A stretch of DNA of 43,056 bases, taken from positions 1 to 43,056 of the forward strand of contig JAODNN010000115.1 of NCBI GenBank assembly GCA_025465355.1, given 5' to 3'. Within the stretch, counting starts at the first letter, position 1. Every line of letters begins with the position of its first letter. The notes under the pieces were generated by a model. The model was given only the letters and a program-made list of their open reading frames with translations, had not been told where the DNA came from and ran no database searches. Positions 1 through 28,907 of this stretch are shown here, in pieces. The position numbers and the translations under genes were made by a program. The DNA is from Blastococcus sp. (lineage in GTDB: Bacteria > Actinomycetota > Actinomycetes > Mycobacteriales > Geodermatophilaceae).

Positions 1-1357
1 CGGCGGCGCCCGCGCGGGCCGCGGCCCTGCCGGCCCGGCGGTCGGCGATGCGCGCCGGGCGTCCGGTCAGCGAACGGGGGCCCTGCTGGCGCAGGCGAGC
101 TTCGACCGGGACGGGGGCGGCGTCCCAGAACGAGACCGCGGCCGGGTTCCCGCCTGGCATCGGCGCCGTCCCGGGCAGGTGGCGGGAGGAGAACAGCCCG
201 GTGGCGGCGCACCACAGCGTCCACGCCTCGGCGTCGTCGCCAGCCCGTTCCAGCCGGCTGGCCAGTGCGAGCAGCTCGGCTCGGCGGGAGACGTGCCCGC
301 CGACGGCCGCGAGGGTGCGCTGGCCGCGGACCATCGGGGCGATCGCGTCGCGCATCTGCCGGCGCAGTCGGCGAGCCTGGCTGTTGCCGCCGTCGAACCA
401 GGCGTGCAGCGTCTGCAGGGTCGCGGCGTAGGAGGCGACGAGCTCGGCGACGCGATTGTCGCCAGCGCCGGCGCCGAGGGTGTGCAGCGCCACCCGCCGC
501 CAGGCGGCCGCCTCGGCGGTGCGCAACTCCCGGACCTCGGCGGCGATCTGCACGGAGTGGGTGTCGATGCCGGCGCCCCACATGTCGACGTAGTGGCGCA
601 GCGTGGTCTGCAGCTCGGCGACCTTCTCCGGGTCGGGCGCGCCGGCGAGCGCGCCGGCGAGGCGGGCCTGCCAGCCGGCGGCGGCCGTGGCCATGCCCTG
701 CAGCGTCGGGTTGATCACGCCCCAGGCCTCGGCCGCCGCGGCCGGGTCGGTGATCACCGCCTCCCGCAGGGCGGCGAGCTGCGCGGTGAGGATCCCTGGC
801 GCCAGGGTGGCTGCCGCGGAGGCGGCGGCGTCGTGTCCGAGGGAGGTGACGGCGCGGTGGAGCTCGGCGGCGCGGGGCGTGAGCTGGTAGCGGTCGAGGT
901 TGCGCAGAAAGTCCTCATCGCGGCGAGCCCGGTCCTGCCAGACATCGACGACCCGCCAGTCGACCAGCTGCCGCATCCGCGCGGGCAGGTTGAACGCGTC
1001 GTCGTCGAGCAGCGCCGGGTCGACGCCCCGGCGCAGGACGTCGTCACGCAGGAGGCCGCGGAGTTCGTCGGCGGGGACGCCGGTCAGGGTGTGCTGCTGC
1101 TGGGCGAGCAGCACGTCGACGATGAGCCGGTACTGCGCGGCGAGCGGCCCGACGAGGTAGCTGGCCTCTACAAGGCCGCCGGGCAGCCCCGCCAACCGCC
1201 AGAGGTCGACCGCCTCAGCGTCGACGGCATGCAGCAGTGGTGGCGCGGCCGCGTTCGCCGCACCGTCGGGCTCTTCCGCTGCACGCGTCCCGGCCACCTG
1301 CACCTCCGATTGGGGCCGCAGGGTATCGGTGACCTCCGACAACTCCGAGGAACACAC
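1..1357 (-). CDS. jetA: Type III Wadjet protein JetA (DUF2397/TIGR02677), 3' end cut by window
   Basis: An open minus-strand frame of 452 codons runs off the left edge without a stop, so the C-terminus is missing (family members are usually about 500 residues). The N-terminal third has the winged-helix-like part (YLVGPLAAQYRLIVDVLL near residue 66, then an LVDWRVVDVWQD segment and YQLTP). The last visible part carries family-like patterns: WFDGGNSQARRLRRQMRDAI, RHLPG, SFWDAAPVPVEARLRQQG and GRPARIADR. In type III Wadjet, JetA is the kleisin-like subunit that works with JetB, the SMC protein JetC and the topoisomerase-VI-like nuclease JetD to cleave circular plasmids. jetA is normally the first gene of the operon, so jetBCD should lie to the left, outside this window. 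The start is GTG at 1357, chosen for a strong Shine-Dalgarno sequence. About 55 residues before the conserved part look like a low-complexity extension. Family assignment is from remembered sequence features; the system call assumes the unseen neighbours. Confidence 0.8.
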   Translation of the reverse strand, partial: MCSSELSEVTDTLRPQSEVQVAGTRAAEEPDGAANAAAPPLLHAVDAEAVDLWRLAGLPGGLVEASYLVGPLAAQYRLIVDVLLAQQQHTLTGVPADELRGLLRDDVLRRGVDPALLDDDAFNLPARMRQLVDWRVVDVWQDRARRDEDFLRNLDRYQLTPRAAELHRAVTSLGHDAAASAAATLAPGILTAQLAALREAVITDPAAAAEAWGVINPTLQGMATAAAGWQARLAGALAGAPDPEKVAELQTTLRHYVDMWGAGIDTHSVQIAAEVRELRTAEAAAWRRVALHTLGAGAGDNRVAELVASYAATLQTLHAWFDGGNSQARRLRRQMRDAIAPMVRGQRTLAAVGGHVSRRAELLALASRLERAGDDAEAWTLWCAATGLFSSRHLPGTAPMPGGNPAAVSFWDAAPVPVEARLRQQGPRSLTGRPARIADRRAGRAAARAGAA

Positions 1358-1365
1358 TGGGGTGG

Positions 1366-1372
1366 CCTCCCT
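1366..1372 (-). promoter_or_regulatory. Ribosome binding site of jetA
   Basis: AGGGAGG on the minus strand, 8 nt before the GTG at 1357. It settles the start, because the frame stays open upstream to a TGA near 1480 with only a weak TTG alternative. Confidence 0.7.
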
Positions 1373-1614
1373 GGCGGCCGGCCCGCGGCGCCGACGCCGG
1401 CGGCCGTCAGTCGCCTCGTGCAGGTGCGACGGGATTGCCCACCGTGCGGCAGCGGCCGCCCTCAACCCATGAGCTCAACCCACGAGAGCCCGGACGGGCC
1501 CGGTCAGGACGAGGCTGAGCGGTGCGAAGTGGCACGATGACCGCCGCGAAACTGCACTTCGACCAGCGGATTCAGGCAGGAACGACATGTGGCGGCACGG
1601 AACGGCACGAGCCG

Positions 1615-1794
1615 TCAGCAGGCCTCCAACACCTGGCACCAGTGGCAGGCCGCGTATCCCACACTCAGCAGGACGGGTACATCCCGGCGCCGCGCCTCCT
1701 CGAACGCCTCGGGTCCCCATTCCCACCAGTCGACCGGGTTCTCCGCGTGTTGCTGCAGGTAGGGGCTGGTGGCGGCAGCCAGGCGGTTGGTCAC
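1615..1794 (-). pseudogene. 5' stub of a YyaL-type thioredoxin-domain protein (DUF255)
   Basis: A GTG at 1794 preceded by AAGGAGGG with a 6-nt spacer begins a 59-codon frame that matches the N-terminus of the YyaL/DUF255 family: [16 protein letters not shown], then NPVDWWEWG (19-27), then [10 protein letters not shown] with the CHWC redox motif at 50-53. The frame stops at TGA (1617-1615) immediately after this motif. Full proteins are about 650-680 residues, so roughly 90 percent is gone and I see no continuation in another frame. The start region and ribosome binding site are undamaged, so a 59-residue peptide could still be made, but it would lack most of the thioredoxin fold. I read it as a truncated pseudogene left by a deletion or an insertion event between jetA and the permease. 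Confidence 0.8.
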
Positions 1795-6466: not shown

Positions 6467-7021
6467 TGTGCGTCGGCGCCCTCGGCTACACGGAGGGTGC
6501 AACTGCGGCGATGGATACGTCAACGGGCCCATGTCGACATGGGATGGCAGATGACCGCCAGTTCTCCGCCGCAACCCTGCCGGGGACCTCGGCGGCGCCC
6601 GCACGGATCGGCGGCCGCCTCACAAGGCCATTCCTACGCATTGCTTGCCCTAACGGCTCCCTCCGCCCGTCCTGTTGCTCGGTCCGAACCGGACGTCCGC
6701 CGGCGGCACCCCGCTCCCACTCACGTTCGGCAAGGGGAACATTCCGGCGCCGCGCTTCGGCGAACGCCTCCTCCCCCAACTCGTGCCAGTCGACCGGCGA
6801 GACGGCTCGGCATGCACCCCACTCATCCTCGCCCGCGGCGGCAGGGCCCGACGGCACGTAGGCGTGAGTCACTGCGGAGCACGGCAACGCTGGTCGCACT
6901 GCCACGGGCATTCAGCACGGCTGGAGGCTCCCCTCGTCGGGTTCGCGTTCCTTCACCCGAAGCAGCCAGGAGGGTCAGGACGGCGGCCACCCCCCGCGGC
7001 CCGGCCGGGCGCGGCCGGCGC
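6467..7021. other. Gene-free stretch with a YyaL-like shred
   Basis: No intact gene on either strand. A 141-codon minus-strand frame spans 6486-6911, but only its middle (6732-6803) resembles a protein family. The last 30 bases next to the glycosidase stop are GC-rich and self-complementary and could fold, without a T-run. Confidence 0.45.
6732..6803 (-). pseudogene. Second YyaL/DUF255-like remnant
   Basis: On the minus strand the bases encode SPVDWHELGEEAFAEARRRN, which lines up with [20 protein letters not shown] of the stub at 1615-1794. The nucleotide match over about 70 bases is strong, including GGTCGACTGG and GCGCGGCGCCGG in register. There is no start codon or CxxC motif around it. 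It is either an old duplicate of the same gene or a piece of a second homologue. Confidence 0.5.
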
Positions 7022-14799: not shown

Positions 14800-15606
14800 T
14801 CACCGGCTGGCCGTGCGCCGGTAAGCCCGGACCGACAGCGGCACGAACACGGCCAGGATCACCACGACCCAGATCAGGCTGTACAGCACCGGGTTCTGCA
14901 GTGACCACACCTCGGGGACCGGGATCGCGGCCGGGGTGTTCCCGAACAGATCACGCGCGGACTTGGCGACCGCCGACACCGGGTTCCACTCGGCGAAGGT
15001 CCGCAGCACCGGGCTGAACGTCTCCAACGGCACGAACGTGTTCGCCACGAACGTCAGCGGGAAGATCACGATGAAGCTGGCGTTGTTCACGACCTCCGGC
15101 GTGCGGACCAGCAGCCCGACCAGGGCCATCAGCCAGGAGATGGCGAAGGCGAACAGCAGCAGGATCAGGAAACCGCCGATGGCCTCGGGCACCGACGAGT
15201 GAATCCGCCAGCCGACGACCAGTCCGGTCAGCGCCATCACGGCAATCGAGATGCTGTTGGATCCGGCGTCGGCCACCGTCCGGCCGATGAGCACCGCCGA
15301 CCGCGACATCGGCAGGGATCGGAACCGGTCGATCAGCCCCTTCTGCAGATCCTCGGCGATGCTGTAACCGGTGATGGTGCTGCCGAAGACGACGGTCTGG
15401 GCGAAGATGCCCGGCAGCAGGAACTCGGCGTAGCTGACGTCGCCGGGCACCTGGATGGCGCCGCCGAAGACGTAGCGGAACAGCAGCACGAACATGATCG
15501 GCGACAGCGTCGCGAACACGAGCAGGTCGGGAACCCGCTTGACCTTGATCAGGTTGCGCCGGGTGATCGTGGCGCTGTCGGACAGCGTCTGCCCGAGGGT
15601 GGTCAT
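14800..15606 (-). CDS. ABC-2 type exporter permease (DrrB-like)
   Basis: A 268-residue permease with six hydrophobic segments (FATLSPIMFVLLFRYVFGG first; a C-terminal LIWVVVILAVFVPLSV last) and the ABC-2 signature region DRFRSLPMSRSAVLIGRTVAD. Family members pair with DrrA-like ATPases to export daunorubicin-type drugs or lipids. The ATG overlaps the ATPase stop as ATGA, showing translational coupling. The frame is open upstream into the ATPase gene, but this is overlap only. The exported substrate cannot be inferred. Confidence 0.9.
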   Translation of the reverse strand: MTTLGQTLSDSATITRRNLIKVKRVPDLLVFATLSPIMFVLLFRYVFGGAIQVPGDVSYAEFLLPGIFAQTVVFGSTITGYSIAEDLQKGLIDRFRSLPMSRSAVLIGRTVADAGSNSISIAVMALTGLVVGWRIHSSVPEAIGGFLILLLFAFAISWLMALVGLLVRTPEVVNNASFIVIFPLTFVANTFVPLETFSPVLRTFAEWNPVSAVAKSARDLFGNTPAAIPVPEVWSLQNPVLYSLIWVVVILAVFVPLSVRAYRRTASR

Positions 15607-16613
15607 CGGATGCCTCCGGTTGCGGCGGGCACCTGCGTGCCGGTCTCGTCGTCCGTCGTGCCGCCGCCGTTCTCCTCGGCGGCGTGGCCGGTGAGGGTCA
15701 GGAAGACGTCGTCGAGATCGGGACGCCGCAGGCCCAGGTCGAGGATCTCCACGTCGGTTCCCTCGAGCCGGCGCAGGCCCTCGGCGAGGGAGTCGACCCC
15801 GCCACTGACCGGCACGGTGAGCCGGCGGGTCTGCTCGTCGAGTCGTGGGGCGTCGACCGCCAGAGGGCGCAGGCACTCCGCCGCCACCGCGAGGTCGGTG
15901 CTGCGACGCACCGTCAACTCCAGCCGCTGCCCTCCGACCTGTGCCTTCAGCTCGTCACCGGTGCCGCGCGCGATCACCCGCCCGTGGTCGATCACCACCA
16001 TCCGGTCGGCCAGCCGGTCGGCCTCCTCCAGGTACTGCGTCGTGAGCAGGATCGTCGTCCCGCCGTCGGCGAGGTCGGCGATGAACTCCCACATGACAAG
16101 CCGGCTGCGCGGGTCGAGACCGGTGGTCGGCTCGTCGAGGACGAGCACCCGCGGCCGGGCGATCAGCGAGGCGGCGATGTCCAGCCGCCGGCGCATGCCG
16201 CCGGAGTAGGTCTTGGCGGGGCGATCGGCGGCGCCGGCCAGATCGAACCGCTCGAGCAGCTCGCGCGACCGGGACCGGGCATCCGCCTTCGGCAGGTGGT
16301 AGAGCCGGCCCACCATTTCCAGGTTCTCGAAGCCGGTCAGGTACTCGTCGACGGCGGCGTACTGCCCCGTGAGCCCGATCGATGCCCGCACGGCGTCGGC
16401 CTGGCGGACGACGTCGAGGCCCACCACCTCCGCGCGTCCCTCGTCGGCCAGGAGGAGCGTGGTCAGGATTCGCACCACCGTCGTCTTCCCCGCACCATTG
16501 GGGCCGAGGAGCCCCAGCACCGAGCCCTCGGCCACGGTCAGGTCCACCCCGTCGAGGGCTGTGGTGGCGCCGAAGCGCTTCACCAGCCCCTCGACGACGA
16601 TCGCGTCGGTCAT
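15603..16613 (-). CDS. ABC exporter ATPase (DrrA-like)
   Basis: A 336-residue ATPase. Walker A GPNGAGKTT (near 37-45), Q-loop GLTGQYAAVDEYLTG, signature YSGGMRRRLD, Walker B VLVLDEPTTGLDPRSR and the switch region LLTTQYLEEAD are all intact. The extra C-terminal 90 residues ending in LGLRRPDLDDVFLTLTGH are typical of DrrA/CcmA-type antibiotic exporters. ATG 16613 is the start: it sits seven bases after TAGCGT, the leaderless arrangement, and the longer frame to 16637 adds nothing conserved. First gene of a two-gene operon with the permease. Confidence 0.93.
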   Translation of the reverse strand: MTDAIVVEGLVKRFGATTALDGVDLTVAEGSVLGLLGPNGAGKTTVVRILTTLLLADEGRAEVVGLDVVRQADAVRASIGLTGQYAAVDEYLTGFENLEMVGRLYHLPKADARSRSRELLERFDLAGAADRPAKTYSGGMRRRLDIAASLIARPRVLVLDEPTTGLDPRSRLVMWEFIADLADGGTTILLTTQYLEEADRLADRMVVIDHGRVIARGTGDELKAQVGGQRLELTVRRSTDLAVAAECLRPLAVDAPRLDEQTRRLTVPVSGGVDSLAEGLRRLEGTDVEILDLGLRRPDLDDVFLTLTGHAAEENGGGTTDDETGTQVPAATGGIR

Positions 16614-16620
16614 GACGACG

Positions 16621-16626
16621 ACGCTA
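16621..16626 (-). promoter_or_regulatory. -10 element of a leaderless ABC exporter transcript
   Basis: TAGCGT on the minus strand followed by exactly seven bases (cgtcgtc) and the ATG at 16613. This matches the TANNNT-N7-start spacing of actinobacterial leaderless transcripts, and no Shine-Dalgarno sequence is present. Confidence 0.6.
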
Positions 16627-16781
16627 GGCCGGTCCACCGACAGTTCCCGACCCCTTGTCGCGGTCGGCAGAGGTGCATTCGTACGGTGGTCGACTCCACG
16701 GCTCTCCCTGTCCGGCGTCCCGACGGGACGGTTCGGAGCAGAGACCGGCGGAGCCCGCCGAACTCATCGGCACCGGGGGGA

Positions 16782-18020
16782 TCAGTCCTTGGTGACCGAG
16801 TAGCCCGCTCGGGAGAGGGCGGACAGCACCTCGTCGGCGTGATCCGGACCGCGGGTCTCGAGGACCACGAACACCTCCACCTCGCCGACGTCCAGCCGGG
16901 TCGCCGTCCGCTCGTGCTCGACCTCGAGGACGTTGGCCCCGACCGCCGCGAGCTCGGCGAGGACGGCGGCCAGCGAGCCGGGGCGGTCCGGCACCCGCAG
17001 CCGCAGGGACAGATAGCGGCCGGCTGCCGCCATGCCGTGCTGGACGACCTTGAGCAGGAGCACCGGGTCGATGTTGCCGCCGGAGACGATCGCCACGACC
17101 GGCGGCGCGAAGGCGGCGGGGTCGGCGAGCACGGCGGCGACCGCGGCCACCCCGGCCGGCTCGACGACGAGCTTGGCCCGCTCCAGGCAGAACAGCAGCG
17201 CGCGGGAGAGGTCCTCCTCGGTGACCGTGCGCACCTCGTCGACCAGCCCGCGCACGTGCGCGAGAGTGAGGTCGCCGGGGCAGGCGACGGCGATGCCGTC
17301 GGCCATCGTCGCCATGCTCGTCAGGGCCACCGGCCGGCCCGCGGCCAGCGACGCGGGGAAAGCGGCGGCCGTCTCCGCCTGCACGGCCACGACGCGGATG
17401 TCGGGACGGCGGGCCTTCACCGCCGCGGCGACGCCCGAGACCAGTCCCCCTCCCCCGGCCCCGACGACGACGGTGGCCGCCTCCGGGCACTGGTCCAGCA
17501 CCTCGAGGCCGACCGTCCCCTGGCCGGCGATCACGTCCGGGTGGTCGAACGGGTGGATGAACACCGACCCGGTGCGCTCGGAGTACTCCGCGGCGGCGAG
17601 CAGCGCTTCGGTCAGGGTCTGCCCGACCAGCTGGACCTCCGCCCCGTAGGCACGGGTGGCGGCCAGCTTCGGCAGCGGTGCGGACTCGGGCATGAACACC
17701 GTGGCCCGGGCCCCGAGGAGCCGGGCGGCGAGCGCCACACCCTGGGCGTGGTTCCCGGCGCTCGCGGCGACGACGCCACGGGCACGCTCGGCGTCGCTGA
17801 GCCGGGAGATCCGGGTGTACGCCCCGCGGATCTTGAACGAGCCGGTGCGCTGCAGGTTCTCGCACTTGAACCACACCGGGCCCCCCACCCGATCGGCCAG
17901 CCCGCGGGAGTGCCACATCGGCGTCCTCCGCACGACGCCGCCGAGCAGGGCGGCCGCGGCCTCGACGTCGGCCCCGCTGATCAGCGGCACCCCGGCAGCC
18001 GGAACGTCGGGCTCGGACAC
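16782..18020 (-). CDS. ilvA: Threonine ammonia-lyase (dehydratase) with ACT domain
   Basis: A 412-residue PLP enzyme of fold type II that deaminates threonine to 2-oxobutyrate, the entry to isoleucine synthesis or threonine catabolism. The PLP Lys lies in CENLQRTGSFKIRGAY (Lys 63); the glycine-rich phosphate loop is VVVGAGGGGLVSGV and the later SGGNIDP is also typical. Residues from about 330 form one ACT regulatory domain (LRLRVPDRPGSLAAVLAELA, then EVEVFVVLETRG). The single ACT domain and length fit the short, TdcB/IlvA1-like form, so a catabolic role is possible. GTG 18020 has GAGGA eight bases upstream; the very long frame reaching 19349 is antisense to the AAA+ gene. Confidence 0.92.
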   Translation of the reverse strand: MSEPDVPAAGVPLISGADVEAAAALLGGVVRRTPMWHSRGLADRVGGPVWFKCENLQRTGSFKIRGAYTRISRLSDAERARGVVAASAGNHAQGVALAARLLGARATVFMPESAPLPKLAATRAYGAEVQLVGQTLTEALLAAAEYSERTGSVFIHPFDHPDVIAGQGTVGLEVLDQCPEAATVVVGAGGGGLVSGVAAAVKARRPDIRVVAVQAETAAAFPASLAAGRPVALTSMATMADGIAVACPGDLTLAHVRGLVDEVRTVTEEDLSRALLFCLERAKLVVEPAGVAAVAAVLADPAAFAPPVVAIVSGGNIDPVLLLKVVQHGMAAAGRYLSLRLRVPDRPGSLAAVLAELAAVGANVLEVEHERTATRLDVGEVEVFVVLETRGPDHADEVLSALSRAGYSVTKD

Positions 18021-26903: not shown

Positions 26904-28907
26904 ATGTCGGATCGGGTCTTCCGTGACCGTCGGGACGCCGGACGTGTCCTGGCTGGTCTGCTCGACCACTACCGGGGGCAGCCCGACGTGGTGGTCCTGG
27001 GGTTGCCGCGGGGCGGTGTGCCGGTGGCCTACGAGGTCGCGCGTGCGCTGGAGGCCCCGCTGGACGTCTTCGTCGTCCGCAAGCTGGGCGTGCCCGGTCA
27101 CGAGGAGGTGGCGATGGGCGCGATCGCCACCGGCGGAGTGGTGGTGATCAACGACGACGTCGTGCGCGGCCTGGACATCACCTCGGACGTGCTCGAGCAG
27201 GTGGCCGAGCAGGAGGGGCGCGAGCTGCACCGCCGGGAGCAGGCCTACCGGGACGGACGGCCCGTGCCCGAGCTCACCGGTGCGACGGTTCTCCTCGTCG
27301 ACGACGGGCTCGCGACCGGCTCGAGCATGCGCGCGGCGATCATCGCGCTGCGCGAGCGCCAGCCCGGACGCATCGTCGTCGCGGTGCCGGCGGCGCCGAA
27401 GTCGACCTGCCAGGAGCTCGGGGCGATGGTCGACGAGATGGTGTGCGCGACGACCCCGTCGCCGTTCTTCGCGGTCGGCGTGTCCTACTGGGACTTCACC
27501 CAGACCACCGACGAGGAGGTGCGCGACCTGCTCCGGGCCGCGGCGACCTCGATCCCGGCACAGGAGCGGGTGCTCAGCGACACCGACCTGATCCGGTCCA
27601 CCGCGATACCCACCGAGGACGGCGCGCCCTCGGCCGAGGCGCTGTTCGATCTGGTCGGGGACGCCCATGTCGTGCTGATCGGCGAGGCCTCCCACGGCAC
27701 CGACGACTTCTACGCCGCGCGGGCGGCGATGACCCGGCGGCTGATCGAGGACAAGGGGTTCTGCGCGGTCGCCGTCGAGGCGGACTGGCCGGACGCCTAC
27801 CGGGTGAACCGGTACGTCCGGGGCCGGTCGGACGACTCCGGCGCCGAGGAGGCGATGCGCGGCTTCCAGCGCTTCCCCACCTGGATGTGGCGGAACGCCG
27901 TGGCGCTCGACTTCGTCGGCTGGCTGCGCGAGCACAACGACCGGCTGGGCGACGAGCGCAGCAAGGCCGGCTTCTACGGCCTGGACCTGTACAGCCTCTA
28001 CCGGTCGATCGACGAGGTGATCACCTACCTCGACGAGGTCGACCCGGAAGCGGCCCGTCGAGCCCGCGAGCGTTACGCCTGCTTCGACCACTACGGCACC
28101 GACGACGGCCAGACCTACGGCTTGGCGGCTGCTCTCGGCGCGGGCGAGACCTGCGAGGACCACGTGATCGAGCAGCTCGTCGATCTGCAGCGCCACGGGA
28201 GGGAGTACGCCCGCCGCGACGGGCTGCTCGCGGCCGACGAGCAGTTCTACGCCGAGCAGAACGCCAAGGTCGTCAAGAACGCGGCGACGTACTACCGCTC
28301 GATGTTCACCGGCCGCGTGCTGTCGTGGAACGTGCGGGACCGGCACATGGTCGACACCCTCGACGCCGTCCAGACCCACCTGTCCCGCCAGCGCGGCGAG
28401 CCGGCCAAGGTCGTCGTGTGGGAGCACAACTCCCACCTCGGTGACGCCCGTGCGACGGAGATGGCTGCTCAGGGTGAGGTGAACGTCGGCCAACTCGTTC
28501 GCGAGGGATGGTCCGGCGACTGCCGCAGCATCGGCTTCACGACCTTCACCGGGACGGTCACCGCCGCCGACGACTGGGGCGGAGAGGCACAGCGCAAGTG
28601 GGTCCGCCCGGCGCTGTCCGGCAGCATCGAGGAGCTGTTCCACCAGGTCGGCCAGAAGGAGTTCATGCTCTCCTTCGCCACGGCCGCCCAGGCGGCCGAG
28701 CGGCTTCGCGCGGCCCGCCTGGAACGTGCGATCGGCGTCATCTACCGCCCCGACACCGAACGGCAGAGCCACTACTTCCGCGCCCGGGTGGCCGACCAGT
28801 TCGACGCCGTGATCCACATCGACGACACCCGGGCGCTCGAGCCGCTGGAGCGGACCGTCGCCTGGGAGACCGGCGAGGTCCCCGAGACCTATCCGTTCGC
28901 GGTCTGA
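26904..28907 (+). CDS. Phosphoribosyltransferase / erythromycin-esterase fusion protein
   Basis: 667 residues with two domains. The N-terminal (about 1-215) is a type I phosphoribosyltransferase: [19 protein letters not shown], then the PRPP loop [14 protein letters not shown] at 129-142. From about 245 follows an erythromycin-esterase domain: [15 protein letters not shown] (255-269, catalytic Glu and His region), [24 protein letters not shown] and [11 protein letters not shown] (near 503-513). The same domain order occurs in mycobacterial proteins of the dormancy (DosR) response such as Rv2030c, from memory; the true substrate of these is unknown and macrolide hydrolysis is doubtful. Strong AGGAGG before ATG 26904. 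Starts a plus-strand run with the hydrolase three bases after its stop. Confidence 0.9.

Follow-up and report, generated by a model that had tools for sequence, protein, structure and literature searches.

A type II Wadjet jetA gene cut off by a contig end in a Blastococcus genome, probably inserted in a DUF255 gene, and close relatives that often lack a whole nuclease gene

In this work we asked what gene runs off the left end of a contig of Blastococcus sp., to which type of system it belongs and where the rest of its operon might be. The contig (C8), which was analysed along its entire length of 43,056 bases and is called the window below, is part of a draft genome of 4.9 Mb in 195 contigs, estimated to be 95.35% complete with 3.11% contamination; the left edge of the window is the contig end and no sequence is readable further left. 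Wadjet systems are divided into three types, of which type I has received most of the work, and their components are described as a kleisin (JetA), a KITE protein (JetB), an SMC protein (JetC) and a protein carrying a Toprim domain (JetD) in PMC10586767 (for general background see also PMC10123090, PMC10740426 and PMC8954581). On the minus strand of the window a reading frame stays open from position 1465 down to base 2, where it leaves the contig. Its start codon may be the GTG at 1357, with GGGAGG 8 nt upstream, which gives jetA the extent 1..1357, or a second GTG at 1297, with GGAGG 5 nt upstream, which lies nearer the conserved part and leaves a shorter non-conserved leader. Both have a good ribosome-binding site, and the 5′ end of the gene lies within the window, as the initial annotation had proposed. 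Its recognition of the frame as a DUF2397 JetA was likewise correct: PF09660 (DUF2397) matches with 288.1 bits (E 1.7e-85; cut-off 28.5), and the PADLOC JetA2 model PDLC00534 matches profile positions 6-410 of 511 with 620 bits (E 7e-187). TIGR02677, which had been named together with DUF2397 as the pattern of this frame, reaches 97 bits (E 9.6e-28) and stays below its curated cut-off of 165.85. The frame is uninterrupted across 405 profile positions and, in an alignment with two relatives, the homology extends to within a few residues of the contig edge. About 100 C-terminal residues are absent because the contig ends inside the gene, and roughly the 5′ four fifths can be read. Judged by its sequence, the frame is a genuine, incomplete Wadjet JetA gene.

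The gene had been filed under type III Wadjet, and this assignment has to be given up. All six PADLOC hits of the frame are JetA2, with no other PADLOC model matching up to E 1. When a profile of 15 JetA proteins was compared with solved sequences, the single match at E up to 1 was chain 9qe0_E (E 8e-14), from an entry entitled ‘Neobacillus vireti Wadjet-II JetABC dimer’. A Foldseek search with the predicted structure of the window JetA also gave 9qe0_E as the best match (E 1.5e-8, TM-scores near 0.3), followed by 9qe1 and then by chains of MukBEF or MukF entries, while E. coli JetABC chains appeared only at E 0.6 and above; the predicted model is weak (mean pLDDT 65, pTM 0.42) and the type call leans on sequence. 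Sequence and fold both point to type II, and the window JetA is a type II protein; the uniformly JetA2 hits and the match to the type II entries 9qe0 and 9qe1 led us to reject type III. The solved structures are of the type II Wadjet of N. vireti LMG 21834 (nvJET), and Wadjet-II from this bacterium is reported to cleave circular DNA (PMC12647877). The JetC of a near relative of the window gene also matches the N. vireti system by sequence (9qe0_A, E 9e-33). However, the window gene, readable only in part, stands on a distant actinobacterial branch; unlike nvJET, most of its closest relatives have no jetD, and the JetD of one locus of the close group (L112) matched none of the solved chains.

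How is this gene distributed? A JetA match was found in six of 112 genomes of the family, this genome included, and the other five proteins are 29-33% identical to that of the window, while within the genus the 15 other genomes gave no match. This patchy distribution in genus and family gives the gene an acquired look. In a sample of the class, PDLC00534 matched in 86 of 394 genomes, with only four, again counting this one, above 400 bits. Scanning named genomes with the complete frame gave 31 pattern matches and no relative, whereas an alignment-based scan found 29 relatives among 53 pattern matches; viral contigs gave 23 pattern matches without a relative, and a comparison of jetA with plasmid records gave no match. 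Fourteen of the 29 loci (L109-L121 and L133), all from Micromonosporaceae, carry a JetA 62-69% identical to that of the window, and the remaining fifteen one that is 37-48% identical. These closest relatives are operons of the PDLC00534 family in Actinomycetota, among them Winogradskya, Actinoplanes and Micromonospora, and have the gene order jetA-jetB-jetC. In the JetA tree the window protein is sister to all 14 Micromonosporaceae proteins and so branches outside every one of them, with moderate support (90/68) that is below the program's mark for firm branches. The five rows nearest to it by path all come from loci without jetD, although the group is mixed.

The gene next to jetA is broken, as had been noted, and it can be identified as DUF255 (Thioredox_DsbH). 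In genus relatives the intact gene has about 665 codons on the minus strand; it is present at the corresponding place in seven of the ten relatives fetched, whole (665 codons) in three and cut by a contig end in four, and absent there in the other three. The window holds its first 59 codons followed by an early stop (1615..1794, minus strand), with homology to about codon 56, the codons up to 56 being carried by 1626-1793. The match of the window to one relative (G034, 88%) takes in about 60 nt upstream of the DUF255 start, so this 5′ fragment is the native copy. The 3′ part, of 601 codons, starts with codon 65 at base 1 of another contig of the assembly (G000:C56); it is 88% identical at the protein level, and the DNA downstream of it matches the next genes of a genus relative. 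The two breakpoints are thus about 24 nt, or about eight codons, apart. Between the DUF255 stop and jetA, which is read in the same direction, lies a spacer of 257 nt (1358..1614, minus strand) that presumably holds the operon promoter. The Wadjet operon probably interrupts the chromosomal DUF255 gene, which was most likely split by the insertion itself. An insertion whose far part is absent from the assembly is the simplest reading; it rests on synteny and on the two breakpoints, with no read or contig joining C8 to C56. In this respect the window differs from the 29 fetched loci, which carry no trace of DUF255. A second, more diverged scrap of the DUF255 N-terminus, 26 codons long, was seen at 6732..6809 (minus strand), where two queries matched with 62-65% identity and E of 0.007 and 2e-4. 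It lies inside the frame 6486-6911, 5 kb away from the first fragment, and may record an earlier insertion or duplication at this site.

On the readable side of the locus we found little that would fit the defence island suggested in the initial annotation. Nine of the ten frames scanned with PADLOC between 1.5 and 16.6 kb had no match of any kind. The tenth, 15603-16637, matched five models, with mad3 the best at 95 bits, and is an ABC-transporter ATPase in Pfam, so that no defence system was recognised in this stretch and a defence island up to 16.6 kb is not supported. The other neighbours include, according to Pfam, an ArsP-type permease, a cytochrome P450 and a glycogen-debranching-type enzyme, and further along the window there are an enolase and a TRCF/mfd-type helicase. 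Genes for AMIN-like, PIG-L and peptidase M3 proteins, which occur near DUF255 in genus relatives, lie in the window from 9.5 kb on. A frame at 26904-28907 on the plus strand fuses a phosphoribosyltransferase domain with an erythromycin-esterase-family domain.

It had also been expected that jetB, jetC and jetD would follow to the left. When the PADLOC JetC, JetB and JetD models were run on nine genomes, none of the three was detected in this assembly, whereas all eight control genomes, picked for carrying a JetA, were positive for each. NCBIfam models TIGR02680, TIGR02678 and TIGR02679 also found nothing in the contigs of this genome, a result of little weight for TIGR02678 and TIGR02679, which were silent in all controls as well. 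A miss through divergence is unlikely, since the PADLOC models recognise the proteins of near relatives (two of each) with 565-582 bits for JetC, 534-624 for JetB and 207-215 for JetD. Contig C8 ends inside jetA, ahead of any position where jetB or jetC could stand. The first 160 bases of C8 gave no overlap-like match to other contigs among the 40 of 249 candidates that were scored, the matches being weak (79-90% over 30-52 bases). Assembly breaks in these operons recur: in another genome of the family (G085) a type II operon is split inside jetC over two contig ends (L042 on G085:C76, and G085:C73). The relatives support the expectation only in part. When the four proteins of locus L040 (G343) were used in tblastn, jetB and jetC followed jetA in 28 of the 29 named loci, the exception (L137) having just a 60-codon scrap of jetA, while jetD was found in 19 of the 29. 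Within the close group it occurs in five of 14 loci (L111, L112, L113, L119 and L121); the other nine have jetA-jetB-jetC without a whole jetD, and therefore the presence of jetD in the operon of the window cannot be assumed.

Could the nuclease gene have been overlooked in these relatives? A JetD profile built from 18 jetD-bearing loci was searched, up to E 1, against six-frame translations of the window and of the 29 loci; it recovered its 18 source loci and pieces in L132, an Actinokineospora spheciospongiae locus whose operon genes are in pieces, and beyond these nothing but a jetD stump in L116, about 100 residues long. When the nine jetD-less loci were searched by tblastn with five JetD proteins from the close group, the picture was the same, and the additional matches were weak (E 0.1 or more) and did not lie behind jetC. 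The absence is not due to contig ends, since the fetched loci reach about 4 kb past jetC. The stump, at 17024-17254 of the Virgisporangium ochraceum locus (L116), stands behind an open jetC frame as a visible trace of the loss of the nuclease. Spacing was examined in eight jetD-bearing loci, and in each of them, on assumed start codons, jetD and the end of jetC overlap. Behind jetC in eight jetD-less loci no common replacement gene was seen, the next frames varying in strand and distance, and the N-terminus of JetB showed no obvious difference by eye between jetD-bearing and jetD-less loci among 16. On the JetA tree of 29 rows, from which L137 was left out and in which L116 was scored as jetD-less, at least four changes of jetD state are needed, and the same number results when only well-supported branches are counted. 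To what extent is the remaining complex kept? JetC is a single open frame in eight of the nine jetD-less loci and broken in L117 (Salinispora mooreana). Simple ATPase motif patterns gave nothing useful, and the sites were instead read from 16 aligned JetC proteins, eight of them from jetD-less loci and none from L117 or L121, where JetC is broken; Walker A (GxNxxGK) and the WLDEA motif, which we take to be Walker B, are kept in all 16. In the locus of S. mooreana, where no jetD was found, frames with the same N-terminus stand before jetA (2510-2908) and just after the broken jetC (16913-17683), and are perhaps copies of a mobile element.

Rates of substitution suggest that most of these jetD-less operons are under constraint. 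For the jetD-less pair L109/L133 dN/dS is 0.15 for JetA, 0.18 for JetB and 0.11 for JetC, with 0.10 and 0.08 for two neighbouring genes; the values for JetA, JetB and JetC are 0.08, 0.12 and 0.27 in L118/L120, 0.14, 0.18 and 0.31 in L115/L116, and 0.41, 0.37 and 0.45 in L110/L114. The jetD-bearing pair L113/L119 gives 0.13, 0.12 and 0.23 for the same proteins and 0.24 for JetD, and L113/L121 gives 0.25 for JetB and 0.40 for JetD. Values are thus low (0.08-0.27) in the two closest jetD-less pairs, and by this measure most jetD-less pairs appear about as constrained as a jetD-bearing one, while L110/L114 is less constrained and gives a less clear sign of function. No report of a jetD-less type II Wadjet was found in the titles and the opening parts of abstracts of open-licence literature. 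A comparable case is MksBEF of Pseudomonas aeruginosa, an SMC complex of Wadjet kin that is thought, according to PMC10586767, to have arisen by loss of JetD; the jetD-less relatives described here differ from it in being type II and actinobacterial.

With this background, we think it likely that the frame in the window is the start of an acquired type II Wadjet operon standing in the chromosomal DUF255 gene, the rest of which falls into the assembly gap between C8 and C56. An operon of jetA, jetB and jetC, with or without jetD, would have been acquired by this species and inserted in DUF255, and its remaining genes would lie between base 1 of C8 and base 1 of C56. It counts against this explanation that this genome could have lost jetB, jetC and jetD by deletion, and that dN/dS of the window jetA against five relatives is 0.33-0.44, higher than in the two closest jetD-less pairs, although the comparisons with the window gene are the deeper ones. 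Is jetA then a relic, left behind after deletion of the other operon genes in a cell with no working system? All three are missing from an assembly estimated to be 95% complete, and decay is seen elsewhere in the family, as in L137 and in G360 (L041), where all four operon genes are in pieces, other JetC2 copies with long open frames being found elsewhere in that genome. However, the frame of the window is unbroken over the profile and homologous almost to the last base, and the 1357 bases read show no mobile element. With a G+C content of 93%, the start of C8 (its first 60 bases) is a likely spot for an assembly break and fits an interruption of sequencing, and the far side of the gap stops just at the DUF255 junction, as would be expected of a missing insert. 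For these reasons we regard a relic as rather unlikely. It is far less probable still that the contig end is a contamination or misassembly and jetA foreign to this genome. The contamination estimate of 3.1% and the Micromonosporaceae origin of the nearest JetA proteins found might suggest this, but the sequence runs on without a gap from jetA to the native 5′ end of DUF255, and from about 9.7 kb on C8 follows the gene order of genus relatives, mostly at 78-87% identity.

What would an acquired operon of this kind do in the cell? By analogy with what has been published for other Wadjet systems, two JetC SMC motors would be linked by JetA as the kleisin, and the JetABC complex would extrude loops of DNA and recognise small DNA circles. 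With jetD in the operon, the plasmid would then be cut by the Toprim nuclease that jetD encodes; without jetD, JetABC alone could only hold, compact or organise DNA. We suggest, tentatively and with more doubt than conviction, that the window jetA belongs to a type II lineage which has repeatedly shed its nuclease while the SMC motor stayed under selection, and that its own operon is possibly a nuclease-free JetABC, derived from a machine of plasmid defence, which compacts DNA or organises the chromosome, or relies on a nuclease encoded at another place in the genome. Taken alone, the window adds one more, incomplete, type II Wadjet, and this matters little. The relatives are of more interest. 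In the current view of Wadjet an SMC motor arms a nuclease, and in the jetD-less relatives the motor is kept without it. Such a lineage offers natural cases in which what the motor does by itself can be studied separately from DNA cutting, as well as a type II counterpart of the origin proposed for MksBEF.
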